A stretch of 37,055 nt of DNA from positions 1 to 37,055 of the forward strand of contig JAPSLU010000017.1 of the NCBI GenBank assembly GCA_031180405.1, in the 5' to 3' direction. How positions within the stretch are numbered: the first letter of the stretch is position 1; every line of letters starts with the position of its first letter. The position numbers and the translations under genes are program-made. The notes under the pieces are model-generated. The model searched no databases. It was given only the letters and a program-made list of their open reading frames with translations, and was not told the origin of the DNA. Below are positions 2,945-36,611 of the stretch, in pieces. This stretch comes from Bacillus sp. (in: firmicutes) (GTDB lineage: Bacteria; Bacillota; Bacilli; Bacillales; Bacillaceae).

Positions 2945-3904
2945 GTGCAAGGCTGGATAAAGCTTCACAGGAAGATACTAGAGAACGAGATATGGCATGA
3001 TGTCACCACTTATCGACTTTTTACATTGCTGCTTTTGCAAGCTGTTCACAAGGACGGGGTTAAAGTGAAAGGCATTGAATTAAAGAGAGGTCAGTACCTC
3101 CGTTCCTATTCTAAGTTAGCCGAAGATCTCGAATACAAGGAAAAAAGAGGATTTAAAAAAGTTTCGAAAAGCACGGTTTTACGATCGGTTAAGAAATTAG
3201 TTGATGAAGGAATAGTGTCCGTTAACGAAACTGATTACGGAACGGTGTTCACCATCCTAAAATACCACGAATACCAAGGGTTTGACGATGATAACGAAAC
3301 GCCAATCGAAACGGATAATGAACCTTTATCCGAACGAAATCGAAACGAAATCGAAACGTTATCGAAACAAGAACAAGAATTAAAGAATTTAAGAATTAAA
3401 GAATTTAATACTTCTACTAAGGATCCAGTGGATGTCATTGCAGAAAAATTTATTGATTTACGAACAGCTGCTGAAGGACGTTCTGTTTACCCAACAACAA
3501 AAGATTATGAAGCAATCGCCCGGATTGTCGCCCGTGGTATACCGTTGCCACAAACAATCAAATTGCTTGAACAGTGTTTTGCTGAATATAAAGAACGTCA
3601 GCCAAATGGAGCCATTAAAGCCTTCGGTTACTGCGAAAAATACATCTTGGATCATTATAAAGCCTTAGTAGCAAGAGAACAGGCAAAAGAGGCAGCTAAA
3701 AACGTTAAGCCTTTTAAAAACAATAATTCTTTTAAGCCAAAGGGTATGCGAGCCAAGCCAATACGGACGGAAATGCTGCCAGATTGGTTTGATGCTGAAA
3801 GCCAACAGCATGAGAAGCCTAACCTTTTAAAGAATGAGCAAGAAATTGCTAAAAAGAAAGCAGATTTGCAGGAAAAACTTAAACTATTAAGATCGGGGAG
3901 TTGA
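2945..3904 (+). CDS. DnaD-like phage replication initiator (YqaL type)
   Basis: 319 residues from GTG, after GGGAGGAGG (2930-2938). The N-terminal part (1-115) is the phage replisome-organiser winged helix: GWIKLHRKILENEIWHD, a helix-rich block with RGQYLRSYSKLAEDL, then SKSTVLRSVKKLVDEG and a wing ending FTILKYHEYQ. A polar linker (about 116-155) is encoded by repeated DNA (see repeat entry). The C-terminal region (about 180-245) resembles a DnaD-type helical domain. Such proteins bind the phage origin and bring in the host helicase. In skin the next gene is a DnaC-like loader (YqaM); none follows here. Confidence 0.75.
   Translation: MQGWIKLHRKILENEIWHDVTTYRLFTLLLLQAVHKDGVKVKGIELKRGQYLRSYSKLAEDLEYKEKRGFKKVSKSTVLRSVKKLVDEGIVSVNETDYGTVFTILKYHEYQGFDDDNETPIETDNEPLSERNRNEIETLSKQEQELKNLRIKEFNTSTKDPVDVIAEKFIDLRTAAEGRSVYPTTKDYEAIARIVARGIPLPQTIKLLEQCFAEYKERQPNGAIKAFGYCEKYILDHYKALVAREQAKEAAKNVKPFKNNNSFKPKGMRAKPIRTEMLPDWFDAESQQHEKPNLLKNEQEIAKKKADLQEKLKLLRSGS
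3304..3406. repeat. Iteron-like repeats plus AT-rich tandem repeat: candidate phage replication origin
   Basis: Inside the initiator gene, AATCGAAACG occurs at 3304-3313, 3338-3347 and 3349-3358, with a variant TATCGAAACA at 3360-3369. The last three are spaced exactly 11 bases apart. Immediately after, the AT-rich 16-mer AAGAATTAAAGAATTT is repeated perfectly in tandem (3375-3390, 3391-3406). Direct initiator sites beside an AT-rich unwinding region, inside the initiator gene, is the known layout of lambda-like origins. Repeats are seen directly; origin function is inferred. Confidence 0.55.
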
Positions 3905-3908
3905 TGCT

Positions 3909-4103
3909 ATGGGGATCCTTTATGAATCCGTTATGCAGCAGAAAAGGAATTTCCTCATCAAGAGATTATCAGAATTGAATATTTCTAGAGCTCAATCCGG
4001 AAAAAGCATTGATGAATGTGATTATGAGGAACTGAAATATGAGCTTGTGCTGGTATCCTTTCGGGAGATTGATGCAGAGGCAGCACAAAATAACTGGTTT
4101 TGA
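3909..4103 (+). CDS. Small FbpA-like protein
   Basis: 64 residues, starting 5 bases after the initiator gene. The stretch QKRNFLIKRLSELNI, then GKSIDECDYEELKYELV, follows the pattern of the short Fur-regulated basic protein A (FbpA) family, where a helix ending in a variable loop leads to an ELxxEL helix. Many Bacillus phage proteins of this size are assigned to that family without a demonstrated iron-related role. The assignment is by pattern only. It overlaps nothing and is followed 15 bases later by a zinc-ribbon gene in the same operon. Confidence 0.5.
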   Translation: MGILYESVMQQKRNFLIKRLSELNISRAQSGKSIDECDYEELKYELVLVSFREIDAEAAQNNWF

Positions 4104-4118
4104 AGGGAGATATGAAAA

Positions 4119-4340
4119 ATGACTATTACAAATGTTAAGTTAGTTACTCGCTGTCCAAAATGTCTGTCCAAGGGGACTGTGATTGGCCATCGAAATAACC
4201 TCTTATTACTTGAGTGCAGGGACTGTAACAAACGTTGGAATACTTACTCAAAGACTTGCAATGTTTGCGGAAAGCCAAATTATTTCTACGTTGAAGGTCC
4301 CTGCGTTAAATGCTATTCAGAGAAACACAATGCCGTCTGA
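4119..4340 (+). CDS. 73-aa protein with four CxxC knuckles (double zinc ribbon)
   Basis: The sequence shows CPKC, CRDC, CNVC and CVKC, enough for two zinc-binding ribbons. The first pair flanks a strand-rich segment (VIGHRNNLLLLE), typical of zinc-beta-ribbons. GGGAG (4105-4109) sets the ATG at 4119; the ATG at 4112 is in another frame and stops quickly. It is probably a small nucleic-acid or protein-binding factor of the early operon. No specific family is recognised. It converges on the minus-strand gene ending at 4343, only 2 bases away. Confidence 0.65.
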   Translation: MTITNVKLVTRCPKCLSKGTVIGHRNNLLLLECRDCNKRWNTYSKTCNVCGKPNYFYVEGPCVKCYSEKHNAV

Positions 4341-4342
4341 AG

Positions 4343-4564
4343 TTAATAAAATCGATGTGCAGGAAAATTAGAATGATGTGCAGATATAATGGCTTTACAC
4401 TTAGGGCAAGTGACATTATCTACTTTTTTAAATTGAATCTTCTTAAAATCATTTTTTGTAAAAGTAGAAAACACATGATATCTAAAACCACATATACATG
4501 TGTTTCGGTCCTTAACAACATGTCTTATACCTGTCTCTTTACAGTTAACTGTTGGGAAAATCAT
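4343..4564 (-). CDS. 73-aa Cys-rich protein downstream of a c-di-GMP-type riboswitch
   Basis: Minus-strand frame starting ATG 4564 (MIFPTVNCKETG), preceded by GAAGGG and GGAAG as possible ribosome binding sites. It carries NTCICGFRYHVFST and VTCPKCKAIISAHH, that is CxC and CxxC pairs that could bind zinc. A longer open frame to 4648 exists, but it runs through the riboswitch-like RNA, so I prefer 4564. The aptamer lies 66-151 bases upstream on the same strand, so expression is likely tied to cyclic dinucleotide level. It runs against the surrounding early operon, typical of an independently controlled accessory gene. No function is recognised. Confidence 0.55.
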   Translation of the reverse strand: MIFPTVNCKETGIRHVVKDRNTCICGFRYHVFSTFTKNDFKKIQFKKVDNVTCPKCKAIISAHHSNFPAHRFY

Positions 4565-4629
4565 GACTTCCAACCCTTCTAAGCTAAAATACAGGCAAAC
4601 TAGAAAGGTATGTATTGATAAAAAATACT

Positions 4630-4715
4630 TTTGCAACCCGGCTGCCATGACAAATAAGCTGTTTTAGGCCCGTGGCTTTGCGTCTTTTACTTTCGTAAAA
4701 TTTGCCCAGAGGAAA
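4630..4715 (-). promoter_or_regulatory. Cyclic-di-GMP-I (GEMM) riboswitch-like aptamer
   Basis: Read on the minus strand, the conserved blocks appear in order: GGGCAAA (complement of 4701-4707), a stem TTTTAC/GTAAAA closed by a GAAA tetraloop (4691-4694), GACGCAAAGCC (4674-4684), GGCCTAAA (4663-4670), then CATGGCAGCC and GGGTTGC (4633-4649). This matches the known GEMM-I pattern, including the GAAA tetraloop and the GACGCAAAGCC core that contains the ligand-stacking A. The closing P1 helix is not obvious from sequence, so ligand binding may be weak or P1 may be non-standard. The downstream gene is the Cys-rich 73-aa protein. Confidence 0.75.
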
Positions 4716-4817
4716 TACTACCATAATTTAGGTGTAATGTCGTAATTTGTTGGAATTTGTAATAATAATGAAATGATGTTTACAAAAGGGAAGAAAGCAT
4801 TATTAGGTGGTGAGGGG

Positions 4818-5069
4818 ATGACGCAGTTAGACTTGTTCTCCTTCGCCCTTGAAGATCAGATCTTTGGATTAAAACAGGGTGAGGAGTTAGAACTTTTCAG
4901 AGGAAATGAACGGCTGCTTATTCGGAAGCATGATAAATACAAGGACGTTTACTTTTATCAGGGACCTGACTTCTCCGGATATGCGCTTCATGTTGATAAA
5001 GAGGGCTTATTTGGTGGATTAGATCTCTTTAAGACAAAAATAAATCAGTGGCTTTGTAGCGGGTGTTGA
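4818..5069 (+). CDS. Hypothetical acidic protein, 83 aa
   Basis: Start ATG 4818 follows GGTGGTGAGGGG, a better initiation site than the in-frame ATG at 4773. The product begins MTQLDLFSFALEDQIFG and contains GEELELFRGNERLLIRKHD and FGGLDLFKTKINQWL. It is soluble, with alternating strands and helices and no Cys pairs except the C-terminal CSGC. It is the first plus-strand gene after the riboswitch insertion and lies convergent with the next minus-strand gene. Family not recognised. Confidence 0.5.
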   Translation: MTQLDLFSFALEDQIFGLKQGEELELFRGNERLLIRKHDKYKDVYFYQGPDFSGYALHVDKEGLFGGLDLFKTKINQWLCSGC

Positions 5070-5093
5070 ATTTAACAAAATAAGGAGTTAGTT

Positions 5094-5225
5094 TCATTTA
5101 CCTTTTTTCTCAGCTCTAAAAGTCCAAGCAACTACTAAGAGCCAAAAAGCTGACAATATACTTGGAACTCCAAGTGTCACGAAATATATATTTTTTAAAG
5201 TATGTTGATCAATCCAGTTAAACAT
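5094..5225 (-). CDS. 43-aa single-span membrane peptide
   Basis: Minus strand, ATG 5225 preceded by GAGGTG at a good distance. The product has an amphipathic N-terminus (MFNWIDQHTLKNIYF), a hydrophobic span (VTLGVPSILSAFWLLVVAW) and a basic tail (RAEKKGK). Size and charge resemble type I toxin peptides of Bacillus prophages, but I see no direct match to TxpA, BsrG or YonT. Its leader contains one of the two 55-nt hairpins (5245-5300), which ends about 20 bases before the start codon and could affect translation. Confidence 0.55.
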   Translation of the reverse strand: MFNWIDQHTLKNIYFVTLGVPSILSAFWLLVVAWTFRAEKKGK

Positions 5226-5856: not shown

Positions 5857-6471
5857 TTAAAAGCTTTTCCCCGATACTTCCCTATCTATTAATAAGGATA
5901 ATTCTATAATAGGTTTTAAATTAGGACTTTCTTTATAAGGTAGCATATCAATACTTCCTATTTTAGTAGCAACATCATACTCTCCAATAATAGTGTCTAA
6001 TAATATAAAGGCTGCGTTTTCCCATTCTTCAAAATCAGAATCATAACCTTTGAGATATAGAACAATGTCTACCGTGTCACCATTTTTTCGGTAAGTGAAA
6101 TATACATCATCAGGCCCTAAACTAATATCCTCATATTCGATAGTGGAAATATCATCAACATTACTTTTGGGTCGAAAAGCAATTATTTTAAAACCGTCAA
6201 GTTTCGGTGCTTTTTCAACAAGGTCAATTACATCTGTAAAGGCAGATAGGATACCATCAGCACTTATTATAAATTCTCTCTTTCCATCGATAAGATCAGC
6301 ACTAAATTCAAAAGCTATATCCTCATTTATCTTAGATAACTGTTTATCTAGTTTGTAGAACAATGAATTTAATTTTTCTTCTTTTAACTGATAATAGTCT
6401 TGTGAATTCTTTTCAAACCAAATCCAGAAGTCAGTAGCAGTATAGTTTTTACCAAATATTTTTTTGAACAT
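5857..6471 (-). CDS. Conserved soluble protein of about 204 aa, function unknown
   Basis: Minus strand. AAAGG lies 9 bases before ATG 6471, favouring it over the in-frame ATG 6480. Segments WIWFEKNSQDYYQL, KREFIISADGI and FKIIAFRPK form a pattern I associate with a widespread family of about 200-aa soluble hypothetical proteins, sometimes found in toxin-immunity neighbourhoods. The C-terminal part (WENAAFILLDTIIGEYDVATKIGSIDMLP) is typical of the same family. No catalytic motif is seen. It has its own -10 box (6502-6507), so it is likely expressed in the lysogen. An immunity or inhibitor role is speculative. Confidence 0.6.
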   Translation of the reverse strand: MFKKIFGKNYTATDFWIWFEKNSQDYYQLKEEKLNSLFYKLDKQLSKINEDIAFEFSADLIDGKREFIISADGILSAFTDVIDLVEKAPKLDGFKIIAFRPKSNVDDISTIEYEDISLGPDDVYFTYRKNGDTVDIVLYLKGYDSDFEEWENAAFILLDTIIGEYDVATKIGSIDMLPYKESPNLKPIIELSLLIDREVSGKSF

Positions 6472-6652: not shown

Positions 6653-6832
6653 ATGACCGAGAAAAAAGCAAGCTATTTATTGTTTTGTTCTGAATGTGGT
6701 ATGCCTCGGCCAATCCCGCAATACATCATGGAAACTTACTTTATCAAAGGGGTTGACGGAGTATATTGCAATAACTGTGGAAATAAGACAATCATTCCGG
6801 GATACCTGAAAAAAATAAAAAATGATTTGTAA
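6653..6832 (+). CDS. 59-aa zinc-ribbon protein
   Basis: ATG 6653 follows GGGGGAAGAGG closely. The product contains FCSECGMPRPIPQY and, 25 residues later, YCNNCGNKTIIPGY: two CxxCG knuckles, a classical small zinc ribbon. The basic tail is KKIKNDL. It is the first plus-strand gene after the minus-strand island and probably belongs with the regulator gene that follows. Function unknown; zinc ribbons of this size often bind nucleic acid or RNA polymerase. Confidence 0.65.
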   Translation: MTEKKASYLLFCSECGMPRPIPQYIMETYFIKGVDGVYCNNCGNKTIIPGYLKKIKNDL

Positions 6833-6897: not shown

Positions 6898-7365
6898 ATG
6901 AAAGAAGCTGCCAGCAAGCAAATTGAATCCATTCTTAAGGATTATCATTGGATGATGAACTCTATAAAGGTGCTCAGGGACTCAATGAAAGAACCAGGAG
7001 AAGGGTTAACAGCTCAATATGGTGATGCAGCTGGGATGCCGAAAGCTCAAGGTACCACAAGTGATCCTGTTTATAGAGAATGTGTACGCAGGGAGAGAAG
7101 ATATTCAGTTATTTGTAAGTACGAGGCTAAGATTTCTGTTATTCAGGATCGAATGCATCTTATTACGGATGACAGGGAAATTGAGGTTCTTCATTGGCTG
7201 CTTGAGGGGAGAAGTTATCGGTGGATTGCAATGCATATGGGTTTATCGCACTCCCACATTGGACGCATTAAAGATTCAATTGTTAAGAAAATGAGTGAAT
7301 ATGTTCCAAATGTTACAAACGATACAAACGATACGAAATTGCTAAAACATAAATCTGCTTGCTAA
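6898..7365 (+). CDS. Late-control HTH regulator (sigma-4/RinA/ArpU-like)
   Basis: 155 residues. GGGAGGGG (6884-6891) sets ATG 6898. The N-terminal part is helical and charged (ECVRRERRYSVICKYEAKI). The C-terminal 106-131 is a helix-turn-helix, SYRWIAMHMGLSHSHIGRIK, of the type seen in sigma factor region 4 and in phage late activators (RinA, ArpU, Xpf). It lies at the end of the early region, just before the head genes, the usual place for the activator of late transcription. The exact family is uncertain. The gene is followed by a strong terminator (7383-7417). Confidence 0.7.
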   Translation: MKEAASKQIESILKDYHWMMNSIKVLRDSMKEPGEGLTAQYGDAAGMPKAQGTTSDPVYRECVRRERRYSVICKYEAKISVIQDRMHLITDDREIEVLHWLLEGRSYRWIAMHMGLSHSHIGRIKDSIVKKMSEYVPNVTNDTNDTKLLKHKSAC

Positions 7366-31687: not shown

Positions 31688-32632
31688 GTGCTCAAATACA
31701 TAGACGTAGATATTAACGAAAATGAAATTATAGAATTTGGAGAACAATTATTATCTATCCTTCTTAAAGATCGGACAACGGGACGAAATATTATCTGGGG
31801 TACAAGTGACTATAAAGATCTTGGCGATTTTTATCATGATAATGAAGAAATAAATTCGACATTAATTACAGGACTTCATCGAAAAGTCATCCAACCTAGA
31901 ATCACTAAATCTAAGATGAATCAAAGTAGCCGCACAAAAGAAAAGGCAGAAGTTTTCACACCCTCGTGGATATGTAATGAACAAAATAATTTAATTGACG
32001 AACAATGGTTTGGAAGAAAGAATGTATTTAATATACAGCTGCATAAATCATGGGAAGTAAATGATCAGAAAATAGAATTCCCCAATATTAAAGGAAAGAT
32101 GTGGGGAGATTACGTAGATGCTCGAAGGATGGAACTTTCTTGTGGAGAAGCTCCTTATCTAGTAAGTAGATACGATACAAATACAGGTGAAACCATTAAA
32201 ATTAAAGACAGAATTGGAATATTAGATCGTAAAATGAGAGTTATCAATGAAAATGTTGATGACGAAACAAATTGGATGAAGTGGACTGAACGAGCTTTCC
32301 AAAGCGTATATGCATATGAATATCAAGGTGATAACTTGCTGCTTGCTCGTGAAAATTTACTATACACTTTTATAGATAATTTAATTCATAAATTTAATAG
32401 AGAACCTACTTTTAACGAACTGAAAAGAATAGCAACAATTATCTCATGGAATATATGGCAAATGGATGGTATTACCAATACTGTTCCGTTGTGTGATAAA
32501 AGAAAATGGATGGAACAAATTTCCTTATTTGATATAATAGAAGATATACCTGAGCGCCAGTATTGTAAGATAAAGGATTGGCGGTCTAAAGTAATTGTTG
32601 AATATCAATCATTGTTAAAAGGGGTAAATTAA
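31688..32632 (+). CDS. R-M accessory subunit resembling a methylase lacking the catalytic motif
   Basis: 314 residues from GTG 31688 after GTGAGG. It has SSRTKEKAEVFTPSWICNEQN (methylase motif X-like TPSWI, 91-95) and RRMELSCGEAPYLVSRYD (149-163, a motif I-like stretch), then WNIWQMDGITNTVP. No NPPY motif IV is seen. I recall such proteins annotated as subunit M beside GIY-YIG/helicase and Eco57I-type methylase genes. It probably forms part of the methylase or specificity complex. Its stop overlaps the next start (TAATG). Confidence 0.65.
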   Translation: MLKYIDVDINENEIIEFGEQLLSILLKDRTTGRNIIWGTSDYKDLGDFYHDNEEINSTLITGLHRKVIQPRITKSKMNQSSRTKEKAEVFTPSWICNEQNNLIDEQWFGRKNVFNIQLHKSWEVNDQKIEFPNIKGKMWGDYVDARRMELSCGEAPYLVSRYDTNTGETIKIKDRIGILDRKMRVINENVDDETNWMKWTERAFQSVYAYEYQGDNLLLARENLLYTFIDNLIHKFNREPTFNELKRIATIISWNIWQMDGITNTVPLCDKRKWMEQISLFDIIEDIPERQYCKIKDWRSKVIVEYQSLLKGVN

Positions 32633-34881
32633 TGGGTGAAATGTTCGGACCAACATTTGAGTATAAACTAATATATATTTTTGAGATCAAAGATGAAAAA
32701 CATCGGGGACTTTTGAAAATCGGTGACACTACTATACAAACAGATGAAGCTATTGATAAGTTGCAACCTAACTGTAAAGCTTTGAATGAAGCTGCAAGAA
32801 AAAGAATAAAGCAGTATACAAATACTGTGGGAGTTTCACCAGAACTATTACATTCAGAATTAGCAGTACGTATCATTAAAGATAGGAATGGAATGCCTGC
32901 CTTAGAAGCATTTCGTGACTATCACGTCCATAAAGTTTTGGAAAACTCGAATATCAAAAAGAAGAAGCTCAATAACTCTACAAGTCGAGAATGGTTTGAA
33001 GTAGATTTACAAACAGTTCTAAAAGCAATTGAAGCTGTTAAAAAGAACGTAAATAATTTATCAAATAGCGCAACATCAAAAATCATCCCTATTGTTTTCA
33101 GACCAGAACAAGAAGAAGCAATTGAAAAAACTATTAAACAGTTTAAAAAAGGAAACCGAATGCTATGGAATGCTAAAATGCGTTTTGGAAAAACTTTATG
33201 TGCCCTCGAAGTGGTTAGAAAGTCAAAATTCAAAAAAACAATAATTATAACTCATCGACCTGTTGTTGATGATGGCTGGTATTCAGATTTTGGAAAAGTT
33301 TTTATTAATGAGTCAAATTACATTTATGGTTCAAAAAATAGTGGGTATACTGTGGATCAACTATTGAAACAAGAAAAAAACTTTGTGTACTTTGCATCTT
33401 TGCAGGACTTACGAGGTTCAGATGCAGTTGGAGGAAAATTTGGCAAGAATAGTGAAATATTTTCATTAGATTGGGATTTTGTTATTGTTGATGAAGCTCA
33501 TGAAGGAACAACAACCGCAATAGGAAATGATGTAATCAAAAAAGTTGTAAAAGAGGAAAATGATTACGATACGAAATTTCTTGCACTTTCAGGAACCCCA
33601 TTTAATATATTAAATGATTATGATGACAATATATACACTTGGGATTATGTTATGGAACAGCGAAATAAGAAAGAATGGGATATAAATTATTTTGGGGATT
33701 CTAATCCTTATGATGAATTACCCGAACTTAAAATATACACATATGATCTAGGGAAAATAATTGATGATGCTAAATATGTTGAGCTAGAAGATAAAGCATT
33801 CAACTTTCGAGAGTTTTTTAGAGTTTGGACAGGCGATATATCAATAGATAGACGTCCTATGCCTGATAGTAGTCTAGTAGGGGAATTTTATCATGAAAAA
33901 GATATAAGAAGCTTTTTAGACTTGATAACTAATGAAGATCACGATAGTCAGTATCCTTACTCTAACGAGGAATACCGAAATTTATTTAAACACTCTTTGT
34001 GGATGGTGCCCGGGGTAAAAGAAGCTAAGGCATTAAGCAAAATGATGAGAAAGCATCCTGTATTTGGTAGTGGAGCTTTTAATATTGTTAATGTTGCCGG
34101 CGATGGTGATGAAGAAGAAAAAACTGAAGATGCATTGAAGAAAGTTCGAGATGCTATTAAGAGTGCTGGTGATGGATATACAATCACTCTTTCTTGTGGA
34201 AAATTAACTACTGGTGTTACAGTTCCAGAATGGACAGCTGTATTCATGCTTTCAGGTTCTTTCTCTACTTCTGCTGCAAATTATTTACAAACTATTTTCC
34301 GTGTTCAGTCTCCATGTAATATTAACGGGAAAATAAAACAGAGTTGCTATGTTTTTGATTTTGCGCCAGATAGAACTTTAAAAATGGTTGCAGAAGCAGT
34401 TGCACTTTCCACAAAAGCTGGAAAAGCTAATGCAACAGATAAGAAAATAATGGGGGAATTTTTAAACTATTGTCCAGTTATTTCAGTCGATGGAACTGTT
34501 ATGAAAGAGTATGATACTAACAAATTATTGCAACAATTGAAGCGAGCTTATGCGGAAAGAGCGGTGAAAAATGGATTTGATGATACAAATTTATATAATG
34601 ATGAACTGTTAAAATTAGAGGATGTTGATATTGAAAAATTTAACAATCTTAAAGGCATAATTGGAAAGTCAAAAGCCACACCAAAAACAAATGAAATTGA
34701 GCTCAATCATCAAGGGTTTACAGATGAAGAATATGAAGAAGTTGAACGTATCAAGAAGAAAACGAAGAAAGAAATAACCCCTGAAGAACAAGAAAAAATT
34801 AAGGAAATTAATGAGCAACGAAAGCAAAAGGCTATGCAATATCGATTTTGCGTGGAATTTCCATTCGAATGCCTTTGTTGA
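32632..34881 (+). CDS. GIY-YIG nuclease and SF2 helicase polypeptide of an R-M system (N-terminal half of a split gene)
   Basis: 749 residues. N-terminal GIY-YIG/T5orf172-type nuclease (about 10-125): KLIYIFEI, LLKIGDTT, R57-containing EAARKRIK, HKVLE and REWFEV. The SF2 helicase follows: motif I MRFGKT (183-188), motif II DEAH (287-290), motif III SGTPF (320-324) and a motif VI-like QTIFRVQSP (about 552-560). It would translocate on DNA and cut unmodified invaders. The last 12 residues (YRFCVEFPFECLC) look out of frame: one extra T in the T run at 34846-34849 would continue into the methylase frame. Confidence 0.75.
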   Translation: MGEMFGPTFEYKLIYIFEIKDEKHRGLLKIGDTTIQTDEAIDKLQPNCKALNEAARKRIKQYTNTVGVSPELLHSELAVRIIKDRNGMPALEAFRDYHVHKVLENSNIKKKKLNNSTSREWFEVDLQTVLKAIEAVKKNVNNLSNSATSKIIPIVFRPEQEEAIEKTIKQFKKGNRMLWNAKMRFGKTLCALEVVRKSKFKKTIIITHRPVVDDGWYSDFGKVFINESNYIYGSKNSGYTVDQLLKQEKNFVYFASLQDLRGSDAVGGKFGKNSEIFSLDWDFVIVDEAHEGTTTAIGNDVIKKVVKEENDYDTKFLALSGTPFNILNDYDDNIYTWDYVMEQRNKKEWDINYFGDSNPYDELPELKIYTYDLGKIIDDAKYVELEDKAFNFREFFRVWTGDISIDRRPMPDSSLVGEFYHEKDIRSFLDLITNEDHDSQYPYSNEEYRNLFKHSLWMVPGVKEAKALSKMMRKHPVFGSGAFNIVNVAGDGDEEEKTEDALKKVRDAIKSAGDGYTITLSCGKLTTGVTVPEWTAVFMLSGSFSTSAANYLQTIFRVQSPCNINGKIKQSCYVFDFAPDRTLKMVAEAVALSTKAGKANATDKKIMGEFLNYCPVISVDGTVMKEYDTNKLLQQLKRAYAERAVKNGFDDTNLYNDELLKLEDVDIEKFNNLKGIIGKSKATPKTNEIELNHQGFTDEEYEEVERIKKKTKKEITPEEQEKIKEINEQRKQKAMQYRFCVEFPFECLC

Positions 34882-36611
34882 TCTATGGGGCTGATATTGA
34901 CATTAATGAAGATATCACCATGGAAAATCTTGTGGATATTGTAGACGACTCATCCTGGGATGAATTTATGCCAGACGGTGTATCGAAAGATTTATTCAAA
35001 AGTTTTATTAAGTATTATGATGCAGAGATATTTATTGCAGCTGGAAGAAAGATAAGAGACACAGTTAGAAGTGCAGATGAATTATCTCCGACAGAGCGTG
35101 TTAAAAAAATTACAGAATTGTTTTCCAATTTTAAGAATCCAGATAAAGAAACTGTGCTTACACCATGGCGTGTTGTAAATATGCATATGAGTGATTGCCT
35201 TGGCGGTTATGACTTTTATGATGCAAATCATACTAGTTTATTAGACACACCGAGATTTGTTGATCGGGGACCAGTAACTAAAGATACACTAGCAAATACA
35301 GATGCTAAGATACTGGAGATAAATTCAAAGACAGGTCTTTATCCACTTTATGTTACTTATAGTATTTTCCGTAGCAAGTGTGATAATTATGCTGAAGATG
35401 AACTAGACTATAAATTGCTGGAGGCTCTATGGAATGAAACTGTTCAGCAGAACATATTTGTGATTTGCAAGACACCAATGGCAAAGTCTATCACAAAACG
35501 AACTTTAATTGGATTTAAGAATATTCCCGTCAATGCTCATTATTTTGATGATCTTATTAAAATGTTAAAGAATAAGCAAAAACAGTTTGTTGACAGAGTT
35601 TTAAAGTCAAGCTATTGGAAAAAGGATGGTAAGAAAATGAAGTTTGATGCTGTGGTTGGTAATCCTCCTTACCAAATAATGGATGGAGGTACAAAGACAA
35701 GTGCTTCACCAATATATAATAAATTTGTTGAATCTTCAAAAGCATTAAATCCTAAATATATATCTATGATTACACCAGCAAGATGGTATGTTGGAGGAAA
35801 AGGGCTAGATTCTTTTAGAACATCTATGCTTAATGATAATCATATTACACGCTTGATTGACTTTCCAAATTCTAATGAAGTATTCCCAACCGTAGATATT
35901 GCCGGGGGTGTAAGTTACTTTTTATGGGATAAGAATATTCAAAGCGAGTGTGAAGTTGTAAATTGTGCAGATGATGAAAGAAATGCATTAACTAGACCTT
36001 TAAATGAATATGATGTTTTTATTCGCTCTAATAAAGCTATATCCATTGTAAGAAAAACTTTACAAAATCATAAAGGTGCATTTATGGATACAGTTGTTTC
36101 TGCATCAAAACCATTTGGATTAAGAACTTTTTATAAACCAAAAGAATCAGGAGTGCCGTGCCAATTTATTCAAAAAATCGGTTTAAAGTATGCTGATCCT
36201 AAAGATGTCAAAGACCAATGGAACTTATTAAATAAATGGAAATTATTAGCGCCTCGTTCACCTATTGCAGGTCAAACTGATTTCACCAAACCTGTCGGGT
36301 TTTACTATGATGGTAATACACGTATTGTACCGCCTGGAACTTGCTGTACAGAATCCTTTCTTGTATTGTTTTCATCAGATTCTGAGGAAGAAGTTCTTTC
36401 ATTTAAGACATACCTTTTTACGAAAGTGGTTAGATTCTTGTTACTCCAATGTGTTGCTTCACAAGATGTAATTCGTGACAAATATAAGTTTGTACCACAC
36501 TTGGGTAATTATTCAGGATCATATACTGATGAAATGTTGTGTGAAATGTGGGATATTACGGAGGAGGAATGGCAATACATTGATTCAAGAATACACAATT
36601 ATGAAAAATAA
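34848..36611 (+). CDS. N6-adenine methylase and target-recognition part (C-terminal half of the split R-M gene)
   Basis: 587 residues as an open frame; the apparent TTG start at 34848 has no good ribosome binding site and lies within LRGISIRMPLLIYG, a segment I recall as internal in related fused proteins. Methylase motif X TPWRVVN (105-111), motif I-like ILEINSKTG (155-163) and motif IV NPPYQ (272-276) are intact. The C-terminal region (about 400-587, VSASKPFGLRTFYKP, AGQTDFTKPVGFY) is probably the target-recognition domain. In frame with the preceding polypeptide it would be about 1330 residues, a Type ISP/IIG-like layout. If the frameshift is real, only low-level expression is expected. 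Confidence 0.7.
   Translation: MRGISIRMPLLIYGADIDINEDITMENLVDIVDDSSWDEFMPDGVSKDLFKSFIKYYDAEIFIAAGRKIRDTVRSADELSPTERVKKITELFSNFKNPDKETVLTPWRVVNMHMSDCLGGYDFYDANHTSLLDTPRFVDRGPVTKDTLANTDAKILEINSKTGLYPLYVTYSIFRSKCDNYAEDELDYKLLEALWNETVQQNIFVICKTPMAKSITKRTLIGFKNIPVNAHYFDDLIKMLKNKQKQFVDRVLKSSYWKKDGKKMKFDAVVGNPPYQIMDGGTKTSASPIYNKFVESSKALNPKYISMITPARWYVGGKGLDSFRTSMLNDNHITRLIDFPNSNEVFPTVDIAGGVSYFLWDKNIQSECEVVNCADDERNALTRPLNEYDVFIRSNKAISIVRKTLQNHKGAFMDTVVSASKPFGLRTFYKPKESGVPCQFIQKIGLKYADPKDVKDQWNLLNKWKLLAPRSPIAGQTDFTKPVGFYYDGNTRIVPPGTCCTESFLVLFSSDSEEEVLSFKTYLFTKVVRFLLLQCVASQDVIRDKYKFVPHLGNYSGSYTDEMLCEMWDITEEEWQYIDSRIHNYEK

Follow-up and report, generated by a model that had tools for sequence, protein, structure and literature searches.

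We asked whether a small gene in a Bacillus prophage is governed by a second messenger of its host and, if so, by what kind of switch. The window that we analyzed, 37,055 nucleotides in length, represents one entire contig of a draft assembly of 438 contigs (completeness, 89%; contamination, 6.5%), on which the assignment of the host rests. When all Rfam families were searched against both strands with cmscan, one match exceeded any gathering score. This was the c-di-GMP-I riboswitch family (RF01051) on the minus strand, with a score of 80.9 bits (cut-off, 35; E = 1.4e-14). The alignment covers model positions 1 to 87 with zero nonstandard pairs flagged, and the GAAA tetraloop and the GACGCAAAGCC and GGCCUAAA blocks occur in the expected order, confirming the near-consensus GEMM-I aptamer of the original prediction. 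Also as predicted, the aptamer lies directly ahead of a cysteine-rich prophage gene of unknown function on the same strand, the 73-aa open reading frame (ORF) P0001 (Table 1). A longer ATG-initiated ORF (101 aa) begins at 4648, within the aptamer, and the family alignment does not retain this start.

Table 1. Positions of features of the riboswitch locus and its surroundings in the window
Feature	Position	Strand	Basis or remark
c-di-GMP-I (GEMM-I) aptamer	4629..4716	-	RF01051, 80.9 bits; G20 = 4706, A47 = 4679, C92 = 4633 (Vc2 numbering)
Aptamer 5′ strand GGGCAAAU, proposed switching strand	4700..4707	-	Complementary to 4599-4593
Anti-Shine-Dalgarno ACCUUUCUA	4601..4609	-	Pairs with 4581-4573 in predicted hairpin
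UUUGCCU	4593..4599	-	Complement of aptamer 5′ strand; invariant in 33/33 leaders
Shine-Dalgarno region UAGAAGGGU	4573..4581	-	8 nt 5′ of ATG 4564; predicted sequestered in aptamer-folded state
Predicted sigma-A promoter	4715..4743	-	Read from sequence: -35-like ACGACA 4743-4738, 17-nt spacer, extended -10
Predicted extended -10, TG-n-TAGTAT	TG 4723-4722, hexamer 4720-4715	-	Read from sequence
P0001, 73-aa CxCG...CPKC protein, candidate zinc ribbon	4343..4564	-	ORF and family alignment
P0002, convergent 73-aa Cys-rich early gene	4119..4340	+	ORF; stop 2 bases from P0001 end
Regulator-like gene	6898-7365		phrog_36 match

The P1 helix had been described as unclear. P1 pairs are not part of the RF01051 model. 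In the window the helix looks absent rather than indistinct, with a predicted -10 occupying the site of its 5′ strand. This hexamer ends 8 nt upstream of the residue equivalent to G20, and because the predicted promoter leaves no room for the 5′ strand of P1, the helix probably does not exist. The promoter scan (threshold, 9 of 12) did not report the window site. The homologous site of another prophage locus, L022, passed the same scan (ATGACA-17-TAGTAT with TG), and by eye a -10-like hexamer stands just 5′ of GGCAAA in the listed leaders of the relatives. The transcript probably starts a short distance before the aptamer 5′ strand.

To characterize the region between the aptamer and the gene, we compared the window with 33 other loci, having dropped L022 and L035 as duplicates; of the resulting 34 leaders, 33 are distinct, since L079 equals L078. 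UUUGCCU is present in all 34 aptamer-bearing leaders, the window included. Among the 33 distinct leaders, no other run longer than one base is invariant between the aptamer and the Shine-Dalgarno (SD) sequence. UUUGCCU is always placed between the anti-SD and the SD, and GGCAAAUUUUA of the aptamer 5′ strand is equally invariant (33/33). The leader sequences are related, so this invariance partly reflects common descent. Dinucleotide shuffles matched the aptamer strand equally well in 22 of 1,000 cases for the window and in 9 to 45 of 1,000 across nine of the 33 leaders. As a control, UUUGCC was found no more than 220 nt downstream of 1 of 14 parsed among the other riboswitches of the same genome (L011), in a comparison that left out L003, L009, L014, and the below-cut-off L019.

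These elements suggest a self-contained cassette in which a promoter of its own starts an RNA with the c-di-GMP-I aptamer at its very 5′ end, followed by a translational platform and the gene for a small candidate zinc-ribbon protein. In the absence of ligand, GGGCAAA in the aptamer 5′ strand would pair with the downstream UUUGCCU. This pairing would break the ligand pocket and draw the anti-SD arm away, so that a ribosome could start. With c-di-GMP bound, the 5′ strand would be locked in the aptamer, UUUGCCU would be freed, and the anti-SD/SD hairpin would form and turn translation off. Expression of the prophage gene would then be largely confined to lysogens with low c-di-GMP.

We examined this scheme by folding. 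The SD was predicted to pair with the pyrimidine-rich left arm just 5′ of UUUGCCU in 33 of 33 platform folds (0.57 to 1.0 of its bases; mean, 0.82), although the sequence had been trimmed 16 nt before UUUGCC so as to hold both arms, a choice that favors their pairing. The hairpin energies lay mildly below those of shuffled sequences, with a mean z of -1.38 and values below -1.5 in 10 of 33 leaders and -0.91 in the window. When arms were swapped among 13 lineages, native combinations averaged -9.1 kcal/mol versus -8.3 kcal/mol, and 573 of 10,000 permutations were as good, so that covariation of the hairpin was not significant by this measure. In two-state folding from the predicted start, the unpaired fraction of the SD in the window was 0.54 in the long-range state versus 0.02 in the aptamer state (means of the 33 leaders, 0.38 versus 0.18). 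The long-range state left the SD more accessible than the aptamer state did in 26 of 33 leaders, including that of the window, and 7 leaders gave the opposite order. Across the 33 leaders, the long-range state differed from the aptamer state by -0.9 kcal/mol (standard deviation, 2.5), and with energies so nearly equal a ligand could tip the balance. At the global energy minimum, 16 of 33 leaders formed the long-range helix, and in 4 the minimum was identical to the aptamer state. Pseudoknots are not scored in these folds, and the long-range pairing and the SD hairpin could coexist as one. A scan of the minus strand of the window from 3900 to 5200 returned no terminator-like sites, and a terminator platform was rejected. 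Weighing the folding support together with the limits set by shuffling, covariation, and pseudoknots, we favor, with moderate confidence, a translational OFF switch in a self-contained cassette carried as temperate phage cargo.

The same folds bear on the reverse arrangement, a c-di-GMP ON switch in which the ligand-stabilized form has an open SD or in which a two-helix pseudoknot is the ligand-free OFF state. The 7 leaders with a more open SD in the aptamer state point in this direction, and the unscored pseudoknots leave room for it; the other 26, among them the window, predict the reverse, and an excerpt of PMC11477304 presents the class I riboswitches of Clostridioides difficile as OFF switches that act on transcription. 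We regard an ON switch as rather unlikely.

We next examined the protein family and its distribution. The window copy of P0001 has five cysteines, and C23, C25, C53, and C56, together with H15 and D19, are invariant in 15 aligned family members. We read the protein as a likely zinc ribbon. It matched no family above cut-off in Pfam or NCBIfam, and a profile search of the PDB gave a best E of 0.056; we therefore assigned it to no known zinc-ribbon family. Weak similarity was found to phrog_15583, which is annotated as of unknown function: all eight aligned members matched with E values no higher than 5, the best being 2.6e-5 and that of the window copy 0.012. A structure model built from 15 sequences (pLDDT 77.8, pTM 0.58) gave no Foldseek match at E ≤ 0.001 (best E, 4.1 in the PDB and 0.2 in the viral library). 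The family is described in none of the libraries searched.

Close relatives of P0001 came from genomes labeled Cytobacillus, Bacillus, and Paenibacillus, and from two distinct IMG/VR contigs; tblastn detected no homologs in 50,697 phage records (E up to 0.1). The only copy in the genome under study is that of the prophage. The P0001 family was found in 2 of 80 genomes of the same bacterial family (own genome included), 16 of 397 across the order (own genome and the spurious L049 included), and 34 of 36 in one other genus. An aptamer lies directly upstream on the same strand at 8 of 9, 10 of 18, and 17 of 20 homologous loci in three sets, or 35 of the 47 scanned (33 of 44 when L022, L035, and L083, which repeat L021, L024, and L047, are left out). 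The scan of the other genus covered those family rows that came with a locus, and a c-di-GMP-I aptamer precedes the family gene at 24 of its 31 distinct scanned places. Among the 12 loci lacking an aptamer (L028, L032, L044 to L050, L081, L083, and L084), L028, the only one in the nine-locus set, has a stop in the gene, and L050 is a fragment. Two loci were judged spurious, namely, L049 and a locus from Archaeoglobus (L029), the latter left out of the nine-locus set. By eye, the C. gottheilii copies adjoin clpP-like and rpoN-like genes. A riboswitch-less member (L058, 9782-10006) has as neighbors, also by eye, a cluster of flagellar genes and an hpf-like gene. When 398 genomes sampled phylum-wide were scanned for the aptamer version with a UUUUAC stem, tolerating one mismatch, the single carrier was the genome under study; the genus with 34 of 36 carriers was not noticed among those sampled. 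Aptamer and gene thus form a conserved unit, carried by phage and by the chromosomes of related bacteria. We read the pattern as that of a chromosomal cassette apparently captured once by one phage lineage.

Selection on the phage copies was estimated from 58 codons. Among six prophage copies, dN/dS was 0.15 to 0.33 in 12 pairs and 0.45 (dS, 0.10) for L023 with either L024 or L025, and one further pair gave no ratio; the gene is under purifying selection. These values count against a second alternative, that riboswitch and gene arrived with the phage and matter no more. Such a decaying passenger would be in keeping with the lack of homologs in the phage records and with close relatives in only two IMG/VR contigs, but the window copy has dN/dS of 0.15 to 0.24 against the five other prophage copies, and GGCAAAUUUUA and UUUGCCU are unaltered in every one of the 33 leaders. 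We consider decay improbable.

The surroundings of the cassette differ between the prophage loci and the other loci tested. In the window, P0001 lies on the opposite strand between replication genes (RecE-, RecT-, and DnaD-like, by PHROGs) and the regulator-like gene, which we take to be ArpU/RinA-like and beyond which follow terminase, portal, head, tail, and endolysin genes. The original prediction had put the gene inside the early operon. It does lie in the early region, but it is antiparallel to that operon and convergent with the plus-strand gene that ends at 4340, and it has its own predicted promoter; P0001 would be a separate, oppositely oriented transcription unit. The six distinct prophage copies, including that of the window, have one common neighborhood. 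P0002 adjoins P0001 at six of six prophage loci tested (L020 to L025, five of them distinct) and at none of 12 other loci, and L020 to L025 have in common three genes close to the cassette, namely, P0002, P0005, and the regulator-like gene, none of which was found at the 12 other loci tested.

Further genes of these prophages were recorded along the way. Two small plus-strand Cys-rich ORFs of the early region (6653-6832 and 4119-4340) are weakly zinc-ribbon-like in Pfam, below cut-off. The right end of the window (32632-36611) encodes a ResIII/T5orf172 protein and an Eco57I-type methylase, possibly restriction-modification cargo. A 495-aa protein with an HKD-like motif, cardiolipin-synthase-like by eye, is encoded near the cassette at L022 (2602-4089), L024 (2905-4392), and L025 (2906-4393), and the L022 protein had no tblastn match in the window.

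The convergent layout raises a third alternative, in which the transcript acts mainly as an antisense RNA that reads into the early genes (P0002, P0005, and the DnaD-like loader) and damps lytic replication. The stop of P0001 lies 2 bases from that of P0002, and no minus-strand terminator-like site was found down to 3900. Nevertheless, the platform appears to act on translation and in that case would not end the RNA. A search of 12 other loci of the family found neither P0002 nor P0005 nor DnaD-like genes, and the homologous strand of L022 has terminator-like sites about 410 and 1,060 to 1,120 bases past the gene (5636 and 6281-6346). An antisense role is therefore very unlikely in our view.

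We also considered the identity of the ligand. Excerpts of two papers give G20, A47, and C92 as the residues of Vc2 that contact c-di-GMP (PMC4744006 and PMC11218506). Equivalent residues were located by the model alignment and by the 27-nt spacing between the leading G of GGCAAA and the first A in CAAAG, which corresponds to G20-A47. In the window they are G, A, and C, so the expected ligand is c-di-GMP, not cGAMP. The same genome has 18 RF01051 matches above cut-off (L001 to L018), 17 besides that of the window, and by eye their first downstream ORFs include a SinR-like HTH protein (L007), a Flp-type pilin (L013), and PAS/GAF, STAS, and response-regulator proteins. Three of the 18 read AGCAAA, with A at the position of G20 (L003, 1501-1587; L009, 1501-1589; L014, 1501-1589; contigs C166, C105, and C247). 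A at this position is presumably the mark of cGAMP-type GEMM-Ib riboswitches, and although these three suggest that the cGAMP signal might exist in the host, the window and all 33 distinct leaders have G there, so that the altered specificity once entertained for this aptamer was rejected and a cGAMP sensor is exceedingly improbable.

Related layouts were sought among viral contigs with a pattern scan that returned at least 120 loci. Among the 120 loci listed, model R1 identified 7 in the first 80 (one of them, L132, being the contig of L021) and 4 in the other 40, one of the latter marginal at 20.6 bits; six of the first 80 besides L132 were looked at more closely. In two IMG/VR contigs, RF01051 riboswitches (L108, 5157-5239; L160, 6003-6085) have the same UUUUAC stem and, inside a predicted SD hairpin, the same complement AAAUUUGCC, and they precede a CheY-like frame. 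In that frame the interval from the stop to the conserved start contains no ATG, GTG, or TTG, and an ATT start is possible. Three further clear c-di-GMP-I aptamers occur in IMG/VR contigs by model R1 (78 to 82 bits; L180, 1214-1300; L184, 5848-5929; L198, 10702-10784).

Compared with known RF01051 riboswitches such as Vc2 and Bc1, the window has the full aptamer match, the GAAA tetraloop, and the G20, A47, and C92 contacts. It differs in that the predicted promoter leaves no space for P1, the 5′ strand would double as the switching strand, and the platform is predicted to hide the SD, with no terminator found. Bc1 of Bacillus thuringiensis, as presented in an excerpt of PMC11218506, is likewise a Bacillus c-di-GMP-I riboswitch with a GAAA tetraloop and G20, A47, and C92 equivalents, but its long platform has two intrinsic terminators, of which the window showed none. 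Phage-borne c-di-GMP sensing is not new, given the C. difficile prophages phiCD630-1 and phiCD630-2, which carry the c-di-GMP-I riboswitches Cdi1_4 and Cdi1_5 (PMC3649979, in part). Like the window aptamer, these are prophage-carried, and they act by premature termination ahead of the antisense antitoxin RNAs RCd11 and RCd12 in the lysis-module region. According to a passage of PMC7699646, high c-di-GMP reduced transcripts downstream of Cdi1_4 and Cdi1_5 (antitoxin strand), although the paper cites another study that found insensitivity. In contrast, the window has a protein gene with a predicted translational layout, on the opposite strand beside replication genes.

What the locus adds to these precedents is a second lineage beside C. 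difficile, within the open-license literature covered and with further published phage-borne cases possible, together with a target that encodes a protein, a cassette conserved in hosts and phage, and a translational layout lacking P1, the platform features all being predicted. Since the same layout also stands before the CheY-like frame of L108 and L160, it may represent a c-di-GMP-I platform class that recurs and has yet to be described. More speculatively, the family could be a mobile single-gene c-di-GMP regulon, in which an uncharacterized Bacillaceae protein family is controlled by a P1-less 5′-end riboswitch whose ligand-binding strand is also its switching strand, and which, once captured by a phage, would let lysogens with low c-di-GMP make a host-acting regulator. 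In any case, the locus would tie a phage-carried gene, outside C. difficile, to a signal that is expected to set whether its host moves or settles.
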